Virus record (IMG/VR): IMGVR_UViG_3300042988_002085
Span: 1-32,134 of that record
Reading direction: 5' to 3' (one strand)
Source of the DNA: a virus
Length of the DNA: 32,134 nt
A program made the position numbers and the translations under genes. Each line of letters starts with the position of its first letter. The first letter of the stretch is position 1. Positions 8,655-32,134 of the stretch are shown here, in pieces. The notes under the pieces were generated by a model. The model made no database searches. It was not told the origin of the DNA and saw only the letters and a list, made by a program, of their open reading frames with translations.

Positions 8655-8957
8655 ATGAAAACATATTACGTTTTTAATTACGCCAAAGTAAAATTAGCCG
8701 AGCAACTCCTGCCGCAGCGTATTGGGCAAGGTGCGTTTGACTTCAAAACGCACCAAAAAAATATCAGGCAAACTGCCCTGCCATTATCAAATATCCAAAA
8801 CAAAACGTTAACCGAAACAAGGCCCGTTTTGATATTGGAGACTGATTTTGCTGAAGAGGATAACGAGCTAAGAATTTTGGCCGAAAACGAGGCCGAGTTC
8901 CACTCGACGGCGGCGGGGGAAATTCATAACTATTTGGCCCAATACGATAATGAATAA
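8655..8957 (+). CDS. Small protein of unknown function between adhesin and endolysin
   Basis: This 100-residue protein begins one base after the adhesin stop and overlaps the endolysin start by 8 bp, so it is co-translated with both. It is mixed in charge, with an acidic C-terminal half (TDFAEEDNELRILAENEAEF) likely to be helical. No signal peptide or membrane segment is present. Position suggests a fibre accessory or chaperone role or a lysis accessory role, but nothing in the sequence decides between them. Confidence 0.6.
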   Translation: MKTYYVFNYAKVKLAEQLLPQRIGQGAFDFKTHQKNIRQTALPLSNIQNKTLTETRPVLILETDFAEEDNELRILAENEAEFHSTAAGEIHNYLAQYDNE

Positions 8958-9456
8958 CGAGCTAAAATATTTGGTTATTCATTGCAGCGCAACTCCGGCA
9001 GGGCGCGATGTGCGGGCTGAAGAGGTCATTGCATGGCACGAGGCTAGGTGGGGCAAAGGGCGGATAGGCTACCGTTCCTTTGTAGAATTGTCGGGCAATG
9101 TGGTACGTTTGAGGGCGGCAAACCAAAACGAAATCGTAGAGCCTGAAGAGGTAACTTGGGGCGTTACTGGTATCAATAAAAATGCTCACCATGTATGCTA
9201 TGCTGGCGGCCTTTCACGCGACCTAAAACGCATACAAGATACACGCACAGACGGCCAAAAAAAGGCCCTTGAAAACATTGTAAAAACCTACCTACGCTTT
9301 GCGCCCAACATTCAAATCGGCGGCCATAACCAGTTTGATAATAAGGCTTGCCCGTCGTTTTGGGTTCCGGCATGGCTGCGCGAGATCGGCGTACCTGAGC
9401 GCAATATTTATCAGGCCGATCCGTATGGATATAAGTCATACTTCAGAAGGTTCTAA
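8950..9456 (+). CDS. Endolysin, N-acetylmuramoyl-L-alanine amidase (T7 lysozyme-like)
   Basis: This 168-residue protein fits the single-domain Amidase_2/PGRP family that cleaves the MurNAc-L-Ala bond of peptidoglycan using zinc. Visible residues are H11 in YLVIHCSAT, Y41 in the GYR segment, H126 in GGHNQFD and C134 in KACPSF, with the K132 that precedes the Cys ligand in T7 lysozyme. There is no signal peptide, so a holin or similar must release it. It is the last gene of the late operon and is followed by a terminator. The only nearby holin candidates are on the opposite strand. Confidence 0.92.
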   Translation: MNNELKYLVIHCSATPAGRDVRAEEVIAWHEARWGKGRIGYRSFVELSGNVVRLRAANQNEIVEPEEVTWGVTGINKNAHHVCYAGGLSRDLKRIQDTRTDGQKKALENIVKTYLRFAPNIQIGGHNQFDNKACPSFWVPAWLREIGVPERNIYQADPYGYKSYFRRF

Positions 9457-9485
9457 TTTTGTTTTTTTGTTTTGCAACTGATAAG

Positions 9486-9518
9486 AAAAAAGCCCGAGGC
9501 AATGCCCCGGGCCTTTTT
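9486..9518. terminator. Bidirectional terminator between endolysin and the minus-strand membrane genes
   Basis: A hairpin GCCCGAGGC / GCCCCGGGC with one A-C mismatch and an AAT loop is flanked by an A run on the left and a T run on the right. It can stop the late + transcript and the converging - transcript that ends at 9538. Confidence 0.85.
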
Positions 9519-9537
9519 ATTTATTCATAACCATAAC

Positions 9538-10182
9538 TCACAACTCTTTAACATCTTTTTGCTTTGGCCTTTTGGCATTAAGGCTCAAAATTGCACTCCG
9601 GTGGAACGCATATTGCGCCTCAATATCCCCGCTCTCGAGTACTGAATACTTTGCTTTTAAGGCTTGCAAATTTTGCTCACTTTGCTCGGCCTCTTGTTTC
9701 GCGCTTGCTATTTCGGCCTGTGCTTTTGCTTCTCTTTGCTTTATGTAATATGCCGCTTGCTTTTTAACCAAGTCAATTTGCTTTGTCAAATCTTCGTTTT
9801 GCTTTTGCAAATCTTCAATTTGCTTTGTCAAATCCTCGTTTTGCTTTTGAACTTGTATGCTTTGCTCGGCCAATTGCTTCACATTTTGCTCGTTTGCTTG
9901 CAAAACATCTATCAATTGCCCCAAATTTAGGCCCGTAGCCGCGATTTTGTTTATCGCCTCTACTAAGTAGGGGCGAGCCAAAAAGAAATAATATATAGGC
10001 TCATTTTGCGCCCAGCGGTTAACCATATTGCTGAAGGCCAAAACCATTGTAACAACACCAACAACTATAACAAGCGCACCGTCGGGCAGGTCGGAGAAAC
10101 GCTCGGCAATTGCGGCAGGGATCAGGCCGAGCAACACCAAAAGGCAAGCCCGGGCAACGTCTGAAAACGATATGAAATTCAT
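9538..10182 (-). CDS. Membrane-anchored coiled-coil protein
   Basis: This 214-residue protein has two hydrophobic N-terminal segments (about 10-27 and 33-52) followed by a long Gln/Lys/Glu-rich coiled coil (about 95-185). The coiled coil contains a near-perfect repeat of QKQNEDLTKQI, visible in the DNA as repeated TTTGCTTTTG-type words. It lies 14 bp downstream of another membrane gene in a minus-strand pair next to the endolysin. A role in lysis (holin or spanin-like) or in the host envelope is possible. No family is recognised. The 23340-23819 protein has a similar build, one membrane segment plus coiled coil. Confidence 0.75.
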   Translation of the reverse strand: MNFISFSDVARACLLVLLGLIPAAIAERFSDLPDGALVIVVGVVTMVLAFSNMVNRWAQNEPIYYFFLARPYLVEAINKIAATGLNLGQLIDVLQANEQNVKQLAEQSIQVQKQNEDLTKQIEDLQKQNEDLTKQIDLVKKQAAYYIKQREAKAQAEIASAKQEAEQSEQNLQALKAKYSVLESGDIEAQYAFHRSAILSLNAKRPKQKDVKEL

Positions 10183-10196
10183 AAGGCATTAAGCGT

Positions 10197-10766
10197 TTAA
10201 ACCTCTTCAAAAACCAATTTCCCGTCTTTGCCTACTGCAATAGTCGGCTTTTTGTACATAGCGGCCACCAAATCCTTAAAAAATGGCATTTTGGCAAGCT
10301 CCGCCGCAAGGTTGTTAGAACATACGCTTATAAGTGTGGAGCTAATTCCATTCATAAGGGCAATTCCCAAAATAAGCGTAGCCGTTACGGGCCTATTTGC
10401 GCTTAACATAGCGTAATACGCAAACGTAGCCACAGCCCAAAAAGCAACCGAAAAAGAGGTCGCCCAATTTTTTGAGCCTATCAGACGGAAAACAAAAACT
10501 CCTATTGACTGCATAGCGGCCAACAGCAAGCCAATTGCAAAAGAGATACCTGCGCCGAGGCCAATGCCTGCGCTCCAGCCTACTTTTGCTAAGTACATAT
10601 TTAGCTTGCTCACAAATAAATCAGAATAGAATAAAGCTATTCCAATTGACTCGACGCACCCCGCGAGGGCAATCAGCGTAATTTGGCCGATGGGCAAAAC
10701 CCAAAAGGCAATAAGATAAAGCGCAAACATATTTGCGCCCTTCAGGAAAGAATGTCCGTTATTCAT
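10197..10766 (-). CDS. Polytopic membrane protein of unknown function
   Basis: With ATG at 10766 the protein has 189 residues and about four hydrophobic segments (near 12-45, 64-95, 102-121 and 125-145), then a soluble tail ending GKDGKLVFEEV. The frame can be extended to 10793, but that would place the start inside the -7 box at 10793-10800, so 10766 is preferred. It is the first gene of the minus-strand pair with the coiled-coil protein. Location beside the endolysin suggests a holin or a membrane-modifying early protein. It is larger than usual holins and carries no known motif. Confidence 0.7.
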   Translation of the reverse strand: MNNGHSFLKGANMFALYLIAFWVLPIGQITLIALAGCVESIGIALFYSDLFVSKLNMYLAKVGWSAGIGLGAGISFAIGLLLAAMQSIGVFVFRLIGSKNWATSFSVAFWAVATFAYYAMLSANRPVTATLILGIALMNGISSTLISVCSNNLAAELAKMPFFKDLVAAMYKKPTIAVGKDGKLVFEEV

Positions 10767-10792: not shown

Positions 10793-10800
10793 CAAATATA
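10793..10800 (-). promoter_or_regulatory. Bacteroidetes -7 box for the minus-strand membrane genes
   Basis: On the minus strand this reads TATATTTG, matching TAnnTTTG, 27 bp upstream of the ATG at 10766. Possible -33 TTG triplets lie 16 or 22 bp further upstream, inside the T-free CAAA-rich tract, so spacing is not ideal. It fits the start of a two-gene minus operon. Confidence 0.65.
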
Positions 10801-10809
10801 AGAATTTTT

Positions 10810-10869
10810 AAACAAACAAAAGCAAAAGCGAAGCAAACAAAAGCAAACGAGCAGCAAGCAAAAGCAAAA
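10810..10869. repeat. T-free, CAAA/AGCAAA-rich low-complexity tract
   Basis: Sixty consecutive + strand bases contain no T and are built from repeats of CAAA and AGCAAA. The tract lies immediately upstream of the minus-strand -7 box. It could act as an UP-type or spacer element, or as protein-binding DNA. No ORF uses it. Confidence 0.6.
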
Positions 10870-10875
10870 TCTAAT

Positions 10876-10915: not shown

Positions 10916-10949
10916 AAAAAGCCTCGTTCAATTTGCGCGAGGCTTTTTT
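10916..10949. terminator. Bidirectional terminator in the control region
   Basis: AAAAAGCCTCG (10916-10926) pairs with CGAGGCTTTTT (10938-10948), eleven pairs, with A and T runs on either side. No + gene lies just upstream, so it insulates the minus-strand membrane operon from the rightward control region or ends a very short RNA. The -33 element of the following promoter sits in its loop. Confidence 0.8.
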
Positions 10950-10962
10950 ATTTATATATTTG
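10933..10962 (+). promoter_or_regulatory. Promoter for the candidate structured RNA (TTG-N19-TATATTTG)
   Basis: TTG at 10933-10935, a 19-bp spacer and TATATTTG at 10955-10962 match the Bacteroidetes consensus fully. No gene start follows. Instead a 160-base GC-rich, highly structured stretch ends in a terminator at 11099-11127. Confidence 0.8.
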
Positions 10963-10965
10963 TAT

Positions 10966-11127
10966 CCTAATAAGGGCTGGGCGGCCTCGGGTCGTCCTGG
11001 CCTTAAATCGTACCATAGGGAATTGAAACATACTGAAGATTATGGCCACTCGGCGCGGCTTCGGGGTTCATCCCGCCGCCGCAAAACCCGGCCAAATTAG
11101 GCTGCTCAAGTTTGGGCAGCCTTTTTT
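10966..11127 (+). ncRNA. Candidate structured small RNA
   Basis: Between a consensus promoter and a strong terminator lies about 160 bases without a plausible ORF. The ends close: CCTAAT (10966-10971) pairs with ATTAGG (11096-11101), and GGCTGGG (10975-10981) pairs with CCCGGCC (11087-11093) with one G-U. Inside are GGCC (10983-10986) with GGCC (10999-11002), CCATA (11013-11017) with TATGG (11041-11045), and a GC-rich hairpin from about 11052 to 11080 around GGTTCAT. The closing stem overlaps the terminator stem by two bases. The start site should fall a few bases after 10962. No known RNA family is recognised. The next gene has its own promoter, which favours a stand-alone RNA over a leader. 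Confidence 0.65.
11099..11127 (+). terminator. Terminator of the candidate structured RNA
   Basis: AGGCTGCTC (11099-11107) pairs with GGGCAGCCT (11114-11122), with one G-U, around the loop AAGTTT and followed by six T. There is no upstream + coding sequence to terminate, which supports a non-coding transcript. Confidence 0.85.
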
Positions 11128-11220
11128 CTTGCCTACCTAAAATATTTTCCCAGCTAACTGCCTGATTTACAGCCAATACCAGCAAGCCGAAAAAATATTT
11201 TCTTTTTTTGGTGCAAACAT

Positions 11221-11251
11221 TTGGAATTTTGAATAGGCCGCCATATCTTTG
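11221..11251 (+). promoter_or_regulatory. Early promoter, copy A (TTG-N20-TATCTTTG)
   Basis: TTG at 11221-11223 and TATCTTTG at 11244-11251 with a 20-bp spacer match the Bacteroidetes consensus. The 47-bp stretch from TTGG to GGAAA differs from the promoter at 15673-15703 at about seven positions, and similarity extends upstream through an A/T-rich stretch. It drives the 64-residue gene at 11283 and probably the operon that follows. Confidence 0.85.
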
Positions 11252-11282
11252 TAGCACATTAAAGGAAAGAAAAAAGCCACGC

Positions 11283-11477: not shown

Positions 11478-11542
11478 AATGCTGGGGGATGCCGAAAACC
11501 CGAAAAAAAGAGTAGGCGCAATTCAAAAAACGCATAAAAAAA

Positions 11543-14599: not shown

Positions 14600-15547
14600 A
14601 TGGCTTTTACTGGAATTTGGATACCTGTTGAAATTTGCCTGTGCAATGGATTTGATGCTCAGGAAAAAATCATTGTTGGGCAGGTTATAGGCTTTAAAGA
14701 GGCCAAAAAGCCCTGCTATGTAAGTAACAATTACTTTGCTTCAATACTGGGCGGTCTATCCGCTAAACGAGTAAGCACAATTATAAACGGCCTAATTGCC
14801 AAAGGTGTAATACAAAGCACCTTGAATAAAGAGTCGGGCAATATGCGAGTTTTAGAACTTAACGAGTCTGGGCTGAAGGCTTTTTTGGCTAAGTACCCTA
14901 TCCCCGAAAACGGGAATACTATCCCCGAAAACTTCCATACCCTATCCCCGAAAACAGGGATACCCTATCCCCGAAAACAGGGATACCCTATCCCCGAAAA
15001 CAGGGATACCCTATCCCCGAAAACTTCCACCAATAATAAAGAAAATAATAAAGTAGATAACATAATTGAAAGTGTATGCAAAAACGAATTTTTGCAGCCA
15101 CGCACACACAAGCCACAAACAATTGAAGAGGCTTTTGGGGATTATGAAGCAACCGAGCAACAGCAAGAAAAAAACCTGCCTACCTTAAACGCCAAAGCCC
15201 AAACGGGCGCAAATACACCGAGAGTTGGGCGCGGCGGTGTAAAAAATACACTAAGCCAATTTGTGCCGCCAAACGAGGCCGAGTGCTTTGATTTTTTCAA
15301 GGCCGCTGCGCCGGGCCTACCTGAATACTTTCTTAAAAGCGAAGCAACTAAGTTTTACAACTACTACGAGGCCCGGGGCTGGGCGGGCATAGTGAATGCC
15401 GAGGCCCTTGCCGTAAGTTGGGCAAGGGCGGATAGGTTCAAAAAAGATGCTGAAGCGCACAGGCCCGCTGCCGCCTCGTTTGTCGAGCAAGTACGGGAAG
15501 ATGCCCAACGGCGCGGCCTCAAGATTTTTGGCGCGGGTTCGTTTTAA
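14600..15547 (+). CDS. Replication initiator (lambda O-like organisation) with internal origin
   Basis: This 315-residue protein has an N-terminal winged-helix-like domain (about 35-92: YFASILGGLSAKRVSTIING, then LIAKGVIQSTLNKESGN with a wing MRVLEL). A repeat-coded linker (about 99-143) contains the iterons. The C-terminal domain (about 230-315: ECFDFFKAAAPGLPEYFLKS, ending RRGLKIFGAGSF) is of the kind seen in phage initiators that meet a helicase loader. The 23-bp DNA repeat is not a multiple of three, so the linker is read in three frames (IPEN, SPKT, YPRK). This shows selection on DNA rather than protein. An earlier in-frame extension overlaps the HNH gene and terminator and is rejected. 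A DnaC-like ATPase gene follows. Confidence 0.75.
   Translation: MAFTGIWIPVEICLCNGFDAQEKIIVGQVIGFKEAKKPCYVSNNYFASILGGLSAKRVSTIINGLIAKGVIQSTLNKESGNMRVLELNESGLKAFLAKYPIPENGNTIPENFHTLSPKTGIPYPRKQGYPIPENRDTLSPKTSTNNKENNKVDNIIESVCKNEFLQPRTHKPQTIEEAFGDYEATEQQQEKNLPTLNAKAQTGANTPRVGRGGVKNTLSQFVPPNEAECFDFFKAAAPGLPEYFLKSEATKFYNYYEARGWAGIVNAEALAVSWARADRFKKDAEAHRPAAASFVEQVREDAQRRGLKIFGAGSF
14899..15024 (+). repeat. Six iterons, probable replication origin
   Basis: TATCCCCGAAAAC occurs at 14899, 14920, 14943, 14966, 14989 and 15012, at distances 21, 23, 23, 23 and 23 bp. The full unit TATCCCCGAAAACAGGGATA is itself a partial dyad (TATCCC / GGGATA). About two helical turns separate the copies, so bound proteins would line up on one face. 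All lie inside the initiator gene, as in lambda O. Confidence 0.85.
15030..15072 (+). other. AT-rich stretch beside the iterons, candidate unwinding element
   Basis: The bases from 15030 are AATAATAAAGAAAATAATAA followed by more A/T-rich sequence to about 15072, directly downstream of the sixth iteron. In iteron origins this is where the duplex first opens. It codes for an Asn/Lys-rich linker (TNNKENNKVDN). Confidence 0.65.
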
Positions 15548-15606: not shown

Positions 15607-15672
15607 TAGAATGTCCTACAAGCCCGTTTTTGCCCTAGTCGGAAAAAATCTTAAATATTTTTTAGCAAGGTA

Positions 15673-15703
15673 TTGGAAATTTGAATGGCCCGTTATACCT
15701 TTG
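15673..15703 (+). promoter_or_regulatory. Early promoter, copy B (TTG-N20-TACCTTTG)
   Basis: TTG at 15673-15675, a 20-bp spacer and TACCTTTG at 15696-15703. It is a near duplicate of the promoter at 11221-11251, including the transcribed start region TAGCAC-TTAAAGGAAA. It drives the 48-residue gene at 15739. Confidence 0.85.
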
Positions 15704-15738
15704 TAGCACGTTAAAGGAAAAACAAAACACACAAAATC

Positions 15739-16347: not shown

Positions 16348-17089
16348 GCAGCTATTTTGGGATTTAGTGCAACTGCTTAGCAATAACACCTACAAAGTTG
16401 CGCCTGAAAACACGGCGGCAACTGGGCAGCTAGTAAACTACTTTGCCGCAAAGCCCGGGGAACTGGATTTGACAAAGGGGGTTTTGTTGCTAGGCCCGCC
16501 AGGCACGGGTAAAACGTTCCTTTTGCGGGCTTTTCAAATTCTTTGCCGCGACTCAGATCATAGCTTTGGGATGAAGTCGGCTATTGAAGTTGCAACCGAC
16601 TATTCAGAAACGGGCCAAATTTCGCTTTTACGGGCAGGCCGGGCAATGGCCTATGATGATATAGGCTTTGAGGGGCAATCGTCGCACTACGGGCAAAAAA
16701 AGGCCGTTTTCGTGGATATTATCCATGCCCGTTACAGAGCGTTTTGTGAAAGTGGCGTAAAAACGCACTTTACAAGCAACCTGAACCCCGTGCTGCTCGA
16801 GAAGGCATACGGCCCCGCTATATTTTCAAGGCTCACCCATTTATGCAATATTGTGATTTTGGTAGGGCAAGATAATAGGGCTATTGCCCCTGCCCCTGCC
16901 GCTATTTCGCCTGAGCAATACTACACGCTTCCTCGTTTTTTTGAGAGCAAAAGCGCAAAGGAACGGGCTGAAGTATTGCGCTGGTATGAAGATTTGAAAA
17001 ACGCCCCGCAGGTTGTGCATAAGCAGACGGCCCGGGAAAAATTTGAGGAGTTAATCAATTCGCTAACGCAAAACAAAAAAGCACAATGA
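16334..17089 (+). CDS. DnaC-like AAA+ ATPase, helicase loader
   Basis: This 251-residue protein has Walker A GPPGTGKT (54-61), Walker B AMAYDDI (104-110), sensor 1 in HFTSNLN (145-151) and an arginine in IFSRL (R166) that fits the arginine finger. This matches the DnaC/IstB/DnaI group, which load the replicative helicase at an origin. Since an iteron-bearing initiator gene lies upstream and no helicase is encoded, it probably loads the host helicase, playing the part of lambda P. The first frame start is a TTG at 16313. The ATG at 16334 is chosen because it gives a normal N terminus. Confidence 0.88.
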   Translation: MKTHRQLFWDLVQLLSNNTYKVAPENTAATGQLVNYFAAKPGELDLTKGVLLLGPPGTGKTFLLRAFQILCRDSDHSFGMKSAIEVATDYSETGQISLLRAGRAMAYDDIGFEGQSSHYGQKKAVFVDIIHARYRAFCESGVKTHFTSNLNPVLLEKAYGPAIFSRLTHLCNIVILVGQDNRAIAPAPAAISPEQYYTLPRFFESKSAKERAEVLRWYEDLKNAPQVVHKQTAREKFEELINSLTQNKKAQ

Positions 17090-17310
17090 AGCACTTTCTT
17101 TTTCTCGTTTTCGCGGCCCTAGTAGGCTGCAAAACTTTGGTAATTGGCAAAGAATATAACTTACCAAACGGCGCAAAAATCGTAGAAAGTACGCACCGCC
17201 ATGTTTACATTAAGTCTGGCGGATACCTGATTAAGGTCGGGCAAAATGGCTCGGTTACAAAAACGGATAGTTTGGGCAATGTTTATCTTATGCAAAAAGA
17301 TGGCAACTAA
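17086..17310 (+). CDS. Small lipoprotein
   Basis: This 74-residue protein has a signal peptide with lipobox (MKHFLFLVFAALVGCKTL, Cys15 after LVG), so it should be lipidated and exported. The mature part is a small beta-rich domain (KEYNLPNGAKIVESTHRHVY, then IKSGGYLIKVG). It overlaps the helicase-loader gene by ATGA. Phage lipoproteins expressed early often block receptors or DNA entry of related phages (for example T5 Llp), so superinfection exclusion is a candidate role by analogy. Nothing in the sequence shows the target. Confidence 0.75.
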   Translation: MKHFLFLVFAALVGCKTLVIGKEYNLPNGAKIVESTHRHVYIKSGGYLIKVGQNGSVTKTDSLGNVYLMQKDGN

Positions 17311-18458: not shown

Positions 18459-18485
18459 ATTGCTTATTTTGTGTTTAATATTTCT

Positions 18486-18493
18486 TATATTTG
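18486..18493 (+). promoter_or_regulatory. -7 box (TATATTTG) before the 18518 gene
   Basis: TATATTTG matches TAnnTTTG exactly and lies 25 bp upstream of the ATG at 18518, just after a terminator. TTG triplets lie 14 and 23 bp upstream, neither at the usual distance. Confidence 0.55.
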
Positions 18494-18517
18494 TGAAACA
18501 TTAAACACTTGCAAAAC

Positions 18518-18976
18518 ATGGGAAACAAAAAGCTAATGGCCGTTAAGTATGTGGCCGAAAAAGAAACATTCAAGCTATCATTTTTGGATAGAATTGGAAA
18601 CGAACAGCCCGAAAAAGTAAGGCTTGAGCTATCCGCTGGGCATGAAATAACCAAGCGTTTTTTTGATATATCGCTTGCTTTCGGGGAATGGTTCAAACCT
18701 CAAAACGAATACTCGCTCGTCGGCTACGAAATTAAGCCCGTAAACAAGGGCAAAAACGAGGTCATATCTTTCTCTTATTCCACGTCTGAAAACGGACTAG
18801 GACTGGGCATCAAAACCGAGAGGGTTGTTTTTACAAAGCCCAATAAAGAGGGGTGTTTGGCCAAATTGCAAGAGGATGGGGACGTGCGCTGGGCCAATTT
18901 GGCGGCGTTTGCAGACTTGTATCAGGCCGTTAAGGATTTTGAGGATTATTGTTTGGATTTGTACGAATTGAAATAG
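18518..18976 (+). CDS. Unknown early protein, possible paralogue of the next gene
   Basis: With ATG at 18518 this has 152 residues. It begins with beta strands (KKLMAVKYVAEKETFKLSF), has a helix with AFGEWFKP near 50-57, and ends with YQAVKDFEDYCLDLYE. The following protein has the same order: KKIKSISYDKDTSRVSVSF, AFNCFEAWLMP, LEALYNYCLNDFE. The two may be a diverged tandem duplication. No family recognised. A TTG start at 18509 is possible but unnecessary. Confidence 0.65.
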   Translation: MGNKKLMAVKYVAEKETFKLSFLDRIGNEQPEKVRLELSAGHEITKRFFDISLAFGEWFKPQNEYSLVGYEIKPVNKGKNEVISFSYSTSENGLGLGIKTERVVFTKPNKEGCLAKLQEDGDVRWANLAAFADLYQAVKDFEDYCLDLYELK

Positions 18977-23139: not shown

Positions 23140-23343
23140 ATGCTAGAAACCTTGCTTTTTTTAAAACAGAATTTAGAACTAGGCAAAAAATACAAGGCCG
23201 AAACTATCTACAAAAGGCTTATTGAAATAGGCAAATTAGATAGCAATACGACCTTTGCGGGCTTTGTTCTGTTTTGCTATGTGCATACGGTTTTAGAAAC
23301 AAGCTGGGAAAACGAAACGCCTTTTATTTATCGTAAAGATTAG
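23140..23343 (+). CDS. Small protein after thymidylate synthase, unknown
   Basis: This 67-residue protein, MLETLLFLKQNLELGKKYKA and so on, is helical, with an aromatic-rich end (ENETPFIYRKD). It starts 4 bp after thyA and ends overlapping by 4 bp with the convergent minus-strand gene at 23340. No motif or membrane segment that would allow a function call. Confidence 0.6.
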   Translation: MLETLLFLKQNLELGKKYKAETIYKRLIEIGKLDSNTTFAGFVLFCYVHTVLETSWENETPFIYRKD

Positions 23344-23819
23344 CCGTTTCTTTTTTCACTTAACATTTTGCCGACTAGCAGTGCTAGCTCGGCAAATTGT
23401 GTTTTTATTTCGGCATCAATTTGCGATTGTTTTGCTTTTATTTCGGCATAGTGTTCTTGAATATACGTTTCTAATTTCAGAAAACGCTCGTTGTTGGTTT
23501 CTTGCACTTCTACTAGCTTATTCAAAAGAACGGTTTTCCTAGTCATTTCCAACTGCATTAATTGGATTGTTTCTAGCGTTTTGGCGGTTTCCATATTACG
23601 GGCTACGGTTTGCCGTTCCGTATATTCCATAAAGGTTTTGGTTATTTCGCTAATTGTTGTGGTATAGCTTTTATTTTGCTCTGCAAAGCTATCCGTTTGC
23701 GTTTTATCTTTTTCGTTAATTCTGTTAATTAACGCTTTTGTAATAAGGTAAAGCGCGAGCAAAAGTACGCTGCCGCCGCCGCCAAATTTTGCAAGTTCAA
23801 TCCAAATTGAATTAGCCAT
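23340..23819 (-). CDS. Holin-like protein with one membrane segment and coiled coil
   Basis: With ATG at 23819 this has 159 residues. There is one N-terminal membrane segment (about 8-30, WIELAKFGGGGSVLLLALYL then ITK) followed by a long Gln/Glu/Lys/Thr-rich coiled coil. The design (short N-out, single membrane helix, coiled coil) fits some phage holins and membrane accessory proteins. It lies 7 bp after the DUF1353 gene. An upstream TTG at 23840 would overlap the previous stop and is less likely. It resembles 9538-10182 in build but not obviously in sequence. Confidence 0.65.
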   Translation of the reverse strand: MANSIWIELAKFGGGGSVLLLALYLITKALINRINEKDKTQTDSFAEQNKSYTTTISEITKTFMEYTERQTVARNMETAKTLETIQLMQLEMTRKTVLLNKLVEVQETNNERFLKLETYIQEHYAEIKAKQSQIDAEIKTQFAELALLVGKMLSEKRNG

Positions 23820-23826
23820 AAGAGAG

Positions 23827-24219
23827 TTATTTACGCCCAACTATCCGCAAAAAGTGATCCCCTAGTTTTTGAACGCCTAAGTAATAAACGTAAGCCCAAA
23901 AACGAGAAAAACCATATTCAATTAACATATCATAAAACAGCCTATCAATGGCCTCTCGAGTGATTTCATGCTTAGGATAATACTTGTATAAAACATCATG
24001 CACGAGGCTAGGATAATAGCCACGAGGCAGCCCGTCAGGGCCTTTTTTGCCGTCAGGCACTAAGGTTGCGCCGTCCCAAACAAACCCGGGCCTTACTGTT
24101 ATTTCGCCGTCAGGCTTTACTATTAAAAACGTAGAAATAAACGACTTGCCCAATATTTGCGTTTTATAAACAAATTCGTTTTCAAGCGTATAACGGCGGT
24201 CGGTCGGACTTTTAAGCAT
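23827..24219 (-). CDS. DUF1353 family protein
   Basis: This 130-residue protein carries the DUF1353 signature: GFVWDGATLVP (about 48-58), the turn GYYPSLVHDVLYKY with His, then a helix with AIDRLFYDMLIEYG. DUF1353 proteins are common in phages near lysis or tail genes and their biochemical role is not established. It is the first gene of the minus-strand pair with the holin-like protein, transcribed from the 45-bp divergent region shared with the terminase operon. Confidence 0.8.
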   Translation of the reverse strand: MLKSPTDRRYTLENEFVYKTQILGKSFISTFLIVKPDGEITVRPGFVWDGATLVPDGKKGPDGLPRGYYPSLVHDVLYKYYPKHEITREAIDRLFYDMLIEYGFSRFWAYVYYLGVQKLGDHFLRIVGRK

Positions 24220-24241
24220 AGGATAATAAAATTAAGATAGG

Positions 24242-24249
24242 CAAAAATA
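24242..24249 (-). promoter_or_regulatory. Possible -7 box for the DUF1353/holin-like pair
   Basis: On the minus strand this reads TATTTTTG, matching TAnnTTTG, 22 bp upstream of the ATG at 24219. No proper -33 TTG is seen. On the + strand the same short region has only a near match (TAATTTTA at 24253-24260) for the terminase operon. Confidence 0.45.
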
Positions 24250-24264
24250 ACCTAATTTTACATT

Positions 24265-24576
24265 ATGAAACGGGCGCGAAAAATAAAGGATTTAGATAAG
24301 TATATCAGACAAAAGTTAAACGAGGCCGATAGCTCCGGCATTACAGCCCTTGAAAAAATTGTAGTTAACTTAATAGATTTGGCGGCCACTACCAATAACG
24401 TAAAGATTGCCGAATTGCTGTTTAATCGCGCTTATGGCCCTACCAAACAACAAAGCGAAGTATTGCACACACATAGCAATATCCCCCCTATAAACTGGGC
24501 TGAAGGAGGGCAAACCGTTATCAATTTTGAGCTAAGCGAAACAGAAAAAAAGGCTTTGGGAAATGGCAATGAATAA
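24265..24576 (+). CDS. Terminase small subunit (probable)
   Basis: This 103-residue protein starts with a basic segment (MKRARKIKDLDKYIRQKLNE), continues with helices (ALEKIVVNLIDLAATTNNVK) and ends with an acidic tail. It overlaps the large terminase gene by 14 bp, the standard arrangement. It is shorter than many small subunits and has no clear HTH, so identity rests on position, size and charge. It would recognise phage DNA for packaging. Confidence 0.7.
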   Translation: MKRARKIKDLDKYIRQKLNEADSSGITALEKIVVNLIDLAATTNNVKIAELLFNRAYGPTKQQSEVLHTHSNIPPINWAEGGQTVINFELSETEKKALGNGNE

Positions 24577-31825: not shown

Positions 31826-32134
31826 ATGGCAGCAACAGACGGCGTACACAAAGGCGACCTTTATAGGATTGTTTTGAGCGATGGCACTAGCGAAATGGTA
31901 GGATGTATTACTACCCTATCTTGGAACGCTACAATGGATAGCACAGAGGTTCCGGCTTGCCGAGGCGCGGCTGCTGAAACGGGCGGATGGAAAAAGTTTA
32001 TCCCCGGGGACAAAAGTATGACTATCTCGGCGGAGGGGCAGGTGCTTATGGCTGAAGATTGGACTCCCCATCGCTTTTTTGGCGCAATGGATAACGAAAC
32101 GGAGCTAGCGTTTATACTTGAGCCTGTAGGCCCT
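31826..32134 (+). CDS. Major tail tube protein, N-terminal part (3' end outside window)
   Basis: 103 codons from the ATG at 31826 to the window end: MAATDGVHKGDLYRIVLSDG, followed by a Gly/Thr-rich beta segment and EDWTPHRFFGAMDNETELAF. These are features of gpV/TP901-1-like tube proteins. The C-terminal 36 codons are at 1-113. The open frame ends CCT, and the first codon at the other end is preceded by AA, so adding one base at the circular junction gives CCT-AAA-GGC and a 140-residue protein. This supports a circular genome cut inside this gene. Confidence 0.8.
   Translation, partial: MAATDGVHKGDLYRIVLSDGTSEMVGCITTLSWNATMDSTEVPACRGAAAETGGWKKFIPGDKSMTISAEGQVLMAEDWTPHRFFGAMDNETELAFILEPVGP

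Follow-up and report, generated by a model that had tools for sequence, protein, structure and literature searches.

Two adjacent minus-strand genes, encoding a polytopic membrane protein (MEM189) and a two-segment coiled-coil protein (CC214), lie 81 nt from the endolysin gene of a phage of Bacteroidota-type bacteria and may provide what the neighbouring amidase needs to cross the inner membrane at lysis, a reading to which we give a probability of about 0.45. The DNA analysed, called the window here, is a whole IMG/VR virus record of 32,134 nt (Table 1). By position, elimination and architecture, the pair appears to be the best holin candidate in it. The main alternative, an early or middle function at the host envelope, cannot be separated from lysis by sequence alone.

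Table 1. Features of the endolysin region, the opposing gene pair and the CC159 unit (window coordinates).
Feature	Position	Strand	Description
Endolysin, N-acetylmuramoyl-L-alanine amidase	8950-9456	+	phrog_822, E 4.2e-37; Amidase_2, 25.6 bits, just below the cut-off of 26
Hairpin between the converging endolysin and pair operons	9486-9524		T run on both strands; -18.6 and -24.2 kcal/mol for 9478-9530
CC214	9538-10182	-	214 aa, ATG start; two N-terminal hydrophobic segments (about 3-21/6-28 and 36-54), then a helix of ~97 residues (87-183); no relative found
In-frame 42-nt (21-nt) repeat	9757-9852	-	codes for the 14-aa repeat QVQKQNEDLTKQIE / DLQKQNEDLTKQID in the CC214 coiled coil
MEM189	10197-10766	-	189 aa, ATG start; polytopic membrane protein, 3-5 hydrophobic segments, Gly-rich helix 66-96; no relative found
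Pair promoter core TTCTTATATTTGTGAA	10789-10804	-	-7 box TATATTTG at 10800-10793; identical 16-mer only at 18482-18497 (+)
Three 21-nt direct repeats (AAACAAACAAAAGCAAAAGCG family)	10810-10872		directly upstream of the pair promoter
Second terminator-like hairpin	10916-10948		with a T run; upstream of the pair promoter
Promoter core TTCTTATATTTGTGAA	18482-18497	+	serves the operon starting at 18518
CC159	23340-23819	-	159 aa; one hydrophobic segment (13-31) and a long charged region; third inner-membrane candidate, rival holin
DUF1353 protein	23827-24219	-	PF07087, E 9.9e-07; one minus-strand unit with CC159

A coding gene pair opposite the endolysin

The two genes are co-oriented within 9538-10766, MEM189 first and CC214 second, with an intergenic gap of 14 nt. 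Scored for codon usage after training on 17 of the phage's plus-strand genes, both genes did best in their annotated minus frame (0.38 and 0.22), the five other frames scoring from -0.38 to 0.00 and from -0.54 to 0.06 over the two stretches. Both genes therefore look coding, as the first-pass annotation had supposed in placing a minus-strand pair beside the endolysin, and spurious open reading frames can be set aside as an explanation. A longer MEM189 frame opens with a GTG at 10793; ATG 10766 is probably the better start, since transcription, judged by the -7 box, would begin only downstream of that GTG.

MEM189 had been described as a four-segment membrane protein. It does carry several hydrophobic segments, and four is one of several defensible counts, cut-offs of 1.6, 1.4 and 1.2 on the Kyte-Doolittle scale giving 3, 4 and 5. 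Its single-sequence AlphaFold2 model is mostly helical at low confidence (pLDDT 52), too poor for a fold search. For CC214, described as two segments plus a coiled coil, two hydrophobic segments were indeed counted, and the coil is backed by the predicted helix (single-sequence AlphaFold2, mean pLDDT 72.7, residues 87-183 mostly above 85) and by many weak matches to coiled-coil families; the internal repeat noticed in the coil is likewise present, at both the nucleotide and the protein level. The charge count (2 vs 0 K/R), a weak basis, leans towards an N-in/C-in topology with the coil more likely on the cytoplasmic side. Holins are small inner-membrane proteins with 1-4 TMs, a description that suits CC214 and, at the stricter cut-offs, MEM189; both proteins exceed typical holin size.

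The window is close to a complete genome

A second contig (IMGVR_UViG_3300047552_002039) was picked up because its DUF1353 gene is identical; it is 100% identical to the window in the stretches compared (6390, 1200, 409 and 1508 nt). It joins position 32134 to position 1 through 40 nt that preserve the reading frame of a gene split across the window ends. Judged from this join, the genome is circularly permuted and about 32.2 kb long, and the window is without only those 40 nt, inside one gene. Because the genome is near-complete, its lack of other strong holin or u-spanin candidates genuinely counts in favour of lysis. The second contig spans window positions 11094 to 1508 and, starting and ending where it does, gives no second copy of the pair. 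Of the terminase relatives that align over most of the protein, the best is about 52% identical, so the phage, as far as pattern searches reach, appears to stand alone at genus level in the collection apart from the identical contig; no relative was found with an 851-aa tail protein as query. Twenty window proteins were scanned against Pfam and PHROGs (10 first, 10 more later), and no integrase was recognised among the proteins scanned or read.

No other lysis gene stands out in the window

The amidase endolysin has no export or other hydrophobic segment and no SAR segment. That it is without a holin beside it on its own strand, as first proposed, agrees with our survey of hydrophobic segments, in which no plus-strand holin candidate was found beside the amidase or elsewhere in the window. 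The credible inner-membrane proteins of the genome are MEM189, CC214 and CC159 only, all on the minus strand; elsewhere, hydrophobic segments occur in the tape measure, as isolated stretches in a handful of soluble or structural proteins, and in a doubtful 112-aa frame at 15616(-).

A lipobox scan of the window returned six frames. One is a plausible lipoprotein (74 aa, 17086-17310) without a C-terminal TM, and the five others are unsupported, although one of these, which runs antisense within a structural gene, has a downstream hydrophobic segment. Apart from this antisense frame, no u-spanin (lipobox plus C-terminal TM) was found in the window, and u-spanin features are absent from both MEM189 and CC214. 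CC214 does not resemble an i-spanin either, a type with a single N-terminal TM, a coiled coil in the periplasm and an o-spanin lipoprotein as partner: it has two segments, its coil is (weakly) predicted to be cytoplasmic, and the sole lipoprotein is distant. The lysis reading thus leaves the breakage of the outer membrane unexplained, in a group whose phages are reported to use u-spanins exclusively (PMC12596118).

Lysis-type genes of related amidases

The amidase query returned 48 loci, of which 13 had less than 3 kb downstream and were dropped, leaving 35; the window's own locus (L001) was also left out of the counts. A 4-TM protein family was present in 30 of these 35 loci, 948-1355 nt downstream of the amidase, and a u-spanin-like family in 33, both always on the amidase strand. 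Given these frequencies, membrane lysis-type genes appear normally to follow this amidase family. Neither family occurs at two loci (L103 and L107), where two other hydrophobic proteins precede the amidase. The names of both families reflect architecture alone: when one member of each was scanned against Pfam and PHROGs, neither a holin nor a spanin was matched, and 35 of 38 u-spanin-like members passed a lipobox-plus-C-terminal-segment test. By hhalign, MEM189, CC214 and CC159 are unrelated to either family. The window is thus like these related IMG/VR phages in that membrane genes follow the same amidase family, and differs from them in that theirs lie on the amidase strand and include a u-spanin-like gene. 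In the genome contig collection, the amidase had seven related loci (L130-L136), all in one Xanthocytophaga flavus genome and spread over six contigs.

A probable promoter of the pair's own

As the first-pass annotation had proposed, the pair seems to be transcribed from its own promoter against the late operon: a Bacteroidota-type promoter match stands on the minus strand at 10800, converging with the endolysin operon. Its -7 box fits the Bacteroidota consensus TANNTTTG, which has been refined to TAHHTTTG (PMC6847099). Boxes of the TATATTTG type are common (57 in the window) and thus weak proof alone, so the weight for a promoter rests on position and on the shared 16-mer. The core has two exact occurrences in the window; 16 nt was the longest word common among 11 upstream regions, a length reached by none of 300 shuffled sets (maximum 15) and by none of 1000 shuffled pairs of the two promoter regions (maximum 15). 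The operon that starts at 18518 holds an HTH gene, matched by a library profile, and genes that by inspection look GIY-YIG-like, Dam-like and thymidylate synthase-like. The reverse strand of the pair and the promoter core that it shares with this DNA-metabolism operon suggest expression at middle rather than strictly late time, while late expression is characteristic of confirmed holins (PMC9239132). The objection is softened by the operon from 18482, which runs on into the terminase operon with no plus-strand terminator or good promoter seen at 23343-24265, so that late genes, too, may be read from promoters of this class. The hairpin at 9486-9524 is a predicted terminator common to the endolysin operon and the pair.

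Several other elements were seen around these operons. The DUF1353/CC159 unit and the end of the plus-strand operon share 4 nt, and plus-strand transcripts reaching the terminase genes would run antisense through it (23340-24219). A perfect 13-nt inverted match links 10841-10853, in the repeat tract upstream of the pair promoter, to 9887-9899 in the CC214 coding sequence, and could be due to chance in K/Q-rich sequence. A different promoter class (TAYCTTTGTAGCACRTTAAAGGAAA) is found at 11244-11268 and 15696-15720 (+), its core occurring among viral contigs only in the contig of the same phage. A small RNA is possible at 10955-11130 (+), where a promoter-like TTG-N19-TATATTTG box ends at 10962, a stable fold covers 10968-11130 (z -3.57) and a terminator hairpin with a T run lies at 11099-11122; no plus-strand gene is assigned to the region and no Rfam family matched that strand. 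The Rfam DUF805b RNA (RF02914) was recognised at 11482-11518 (+), just upstream of the 11543 gene (40.1 bits, gathering score 35.6), and a tandem array of 5.8 copies of a 23-nt unit (TACCCTATCCCCGAAAACAGGGA) occupies 14894-15024 inside the 14495-15547 gene.

The pair proteins are orphans

Neither MEM189 nor CC214 has a recognisable relative in any collection searched. Used singly as queries against the viral contig collection, both came back empty; against phage records, tblastn returned nothing for MEM189 and one 43-residue coiled-coil match (E 0.02) for CC214. MEM189 found no relative in the genome contig collection or in 31 phage records, and its best PDB sequence match had an E-value of 0.38. 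A fold search with CC214 in BFVD gave seven matches, none at E<=0.001. Among 395 Bacteroidota genomes, matches to MEM189 in nine (E<=0.01, best 9e-4), several with internal stops, and to CC214 residues 1-90 in seven (best 0.0017), in frames of 351-756 aa, were read as chance. A screen of 152 loci for further two-TM coiled-coil proteins turned up nothing beyond CC214 itself and a single unconvincing protein with one TM. Because pattern searches detect only close relatives, more distant ones may exist. In Pfam, PHROGs and NCBIfam, neither protein matched a holin family and no DNA-binding domain was detected; no defence or exclusion family was matched beyond weak coiled-coil hits. Missing holin homology is expected, since holin-like sequences are very diverse: the 46 TM proteins of the Gordonia phages make up 34 families (PMC9671378).

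Lysis or another membrane function

We infer a scheme for lysis in which CC214 would be the holin, a two-segment membrane hairpin most likely oriented N-in/C-in, whose cytoplasmic coiled coil would drive oligomerisation and timing and which, on triggering, would open the membrane and let the amidase reach the wall. MEM189, translated just before CC214 from the same transcript, would be its partner, as a second holin or an antiholin. Since the unit has a sigma-ABfr-type promoter of its own, the pair would be made independently of the plus-strand late operon, with the two-way terminator separating the converging transcripts.

The first-pass annotation had offered, beside an unusual lysis set, an early envelope function such as superinfection exclusion. 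MEM189 and CC214 would then form an inner-membrane complex that is made with the DNA-metabolism genes and would alter the host envelope, prevent a second phage's DNA from entering or shield the infected cell, with lysis left to CC159 or an unrecognised protein. The host-type promoter with its 16-nt identity to the one at 18482-18497, and the transcription of a terminator-ended unit against the late operon, fit this. Against it, the pair matched no defence or exclusion family beyond the weak coiled-coil hits, and the amidase would have no release protein next to it. The best-known cases of superinfection exclusion come from prophages, which also counts against it in a genome where no integrase was recognised among the proteins read or scanned. 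Of the two functions first offered, lysis is thus argued for by the missing holin and u-spanin candidates, the shared promoter core pulls towards non-late expression, and exclusion found no specific support; we hold an envelope function to be a serious, if less probable, reading.

CC159 is another candidate holin. With one TM and a predicted N-out/C-in orientation (KR 1 vs 4), it would have the topology of Mu releasin gp25 (PMC9239132) and LysF1b (PMC13056207), and the pair could then be an accessory such as an antiholin or lysis regulator. However, CC159 is encoded about 14 kb from the endolysin gene, adjoins the DUF1353 gene, which belongs to a PHROG with the label tail assembly chaperone, and gave no holin match in Pfam, PHROGs or NCBIfam when scanned with a longer TTG start, and we regard this arrangement as improbable. 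Slightly more improbable still is a membrane anchor for replication or host takeover, with MEM189 as membrane base and the coil and basic C-terminus of CC214 fastening replication proteins or phage DNA to the membrane in the way suggested for phi29 p16.7, which organises membrane-associated phage DNA replication (PMC11476376): the promoter core common with the DNA-metabolism operon and the long coil predicted on the cytoplasmic side of CC214 agree with it, but no DNA-binding domain was detected in the pair and the fold evidence, for CC214 only, is weak.

Comparison with known lysis systems

The lysis reading has its closest parallel in the gp11 holin of mycobacteriophage D29 (141 aa), which has two N-terminal TMs, an N-in/C-in topology and a C-terminal coiled coil that affects oligomerisation and timing (PMC9671378). 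CC214 likewise has two segments followed by a long predicted helix, and by its weak charge count may share the orientation, with the coil on the cytoplasmic side, but it is longer, has a helix of ~97 residues and is encoded opposite its endolysin; the likeness is one of architecture, sequence having been compared only through family libraries. MEM189, at one threshold, has four hydrophobic segments like P2 LysA and the four-TM lysis proteins of Gordonia phages, and also lies beside an endolysin gene (PMC9671378). Unlike them, it is an orphan, has 3-5 segments by cut-off and sits on the reverse strand; in the same Gordonia phage survey, PokyPuppy gp38 is reported as the only TM gene in reverse orientation. 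Flavobacterial phage genomes likewise have endolysins beside unnamed TM proteins (PMC8776804). With Mu releasin gp25, a lysis accessory, the shared feature is a TM with a charged cytoplasmic tail; gp25 differs in having 99 aa and one TM and in acting on a SAR endolysin (PMC9239132), whereas the window amidase is without a SAR segment.

If the pair is a lysis set, holin and endolysin would stand on opposite strands of a compact genome under separate promoters, and a Bacteroidota phage would do without the u-spanin, the reported sole spanin type of its group (PMC12596118). The full arrangement, a lysis unit opposite its endolysin's strand under its own middle-class promoter, with hole formation timed independently of endolysin synthesis and, there being no u-spanin, the outer membrane broken by other means, we consider doubtful. 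If the pair instead serves the envelope, the phage must lyse its host with CC159 or something unrecognised. If the phage encodes a holin, one of MEM189, CC214 and CC159 should be it. On either reading, the pair marks a small, testable gap in how Bacteroidota phages leave their hosts.
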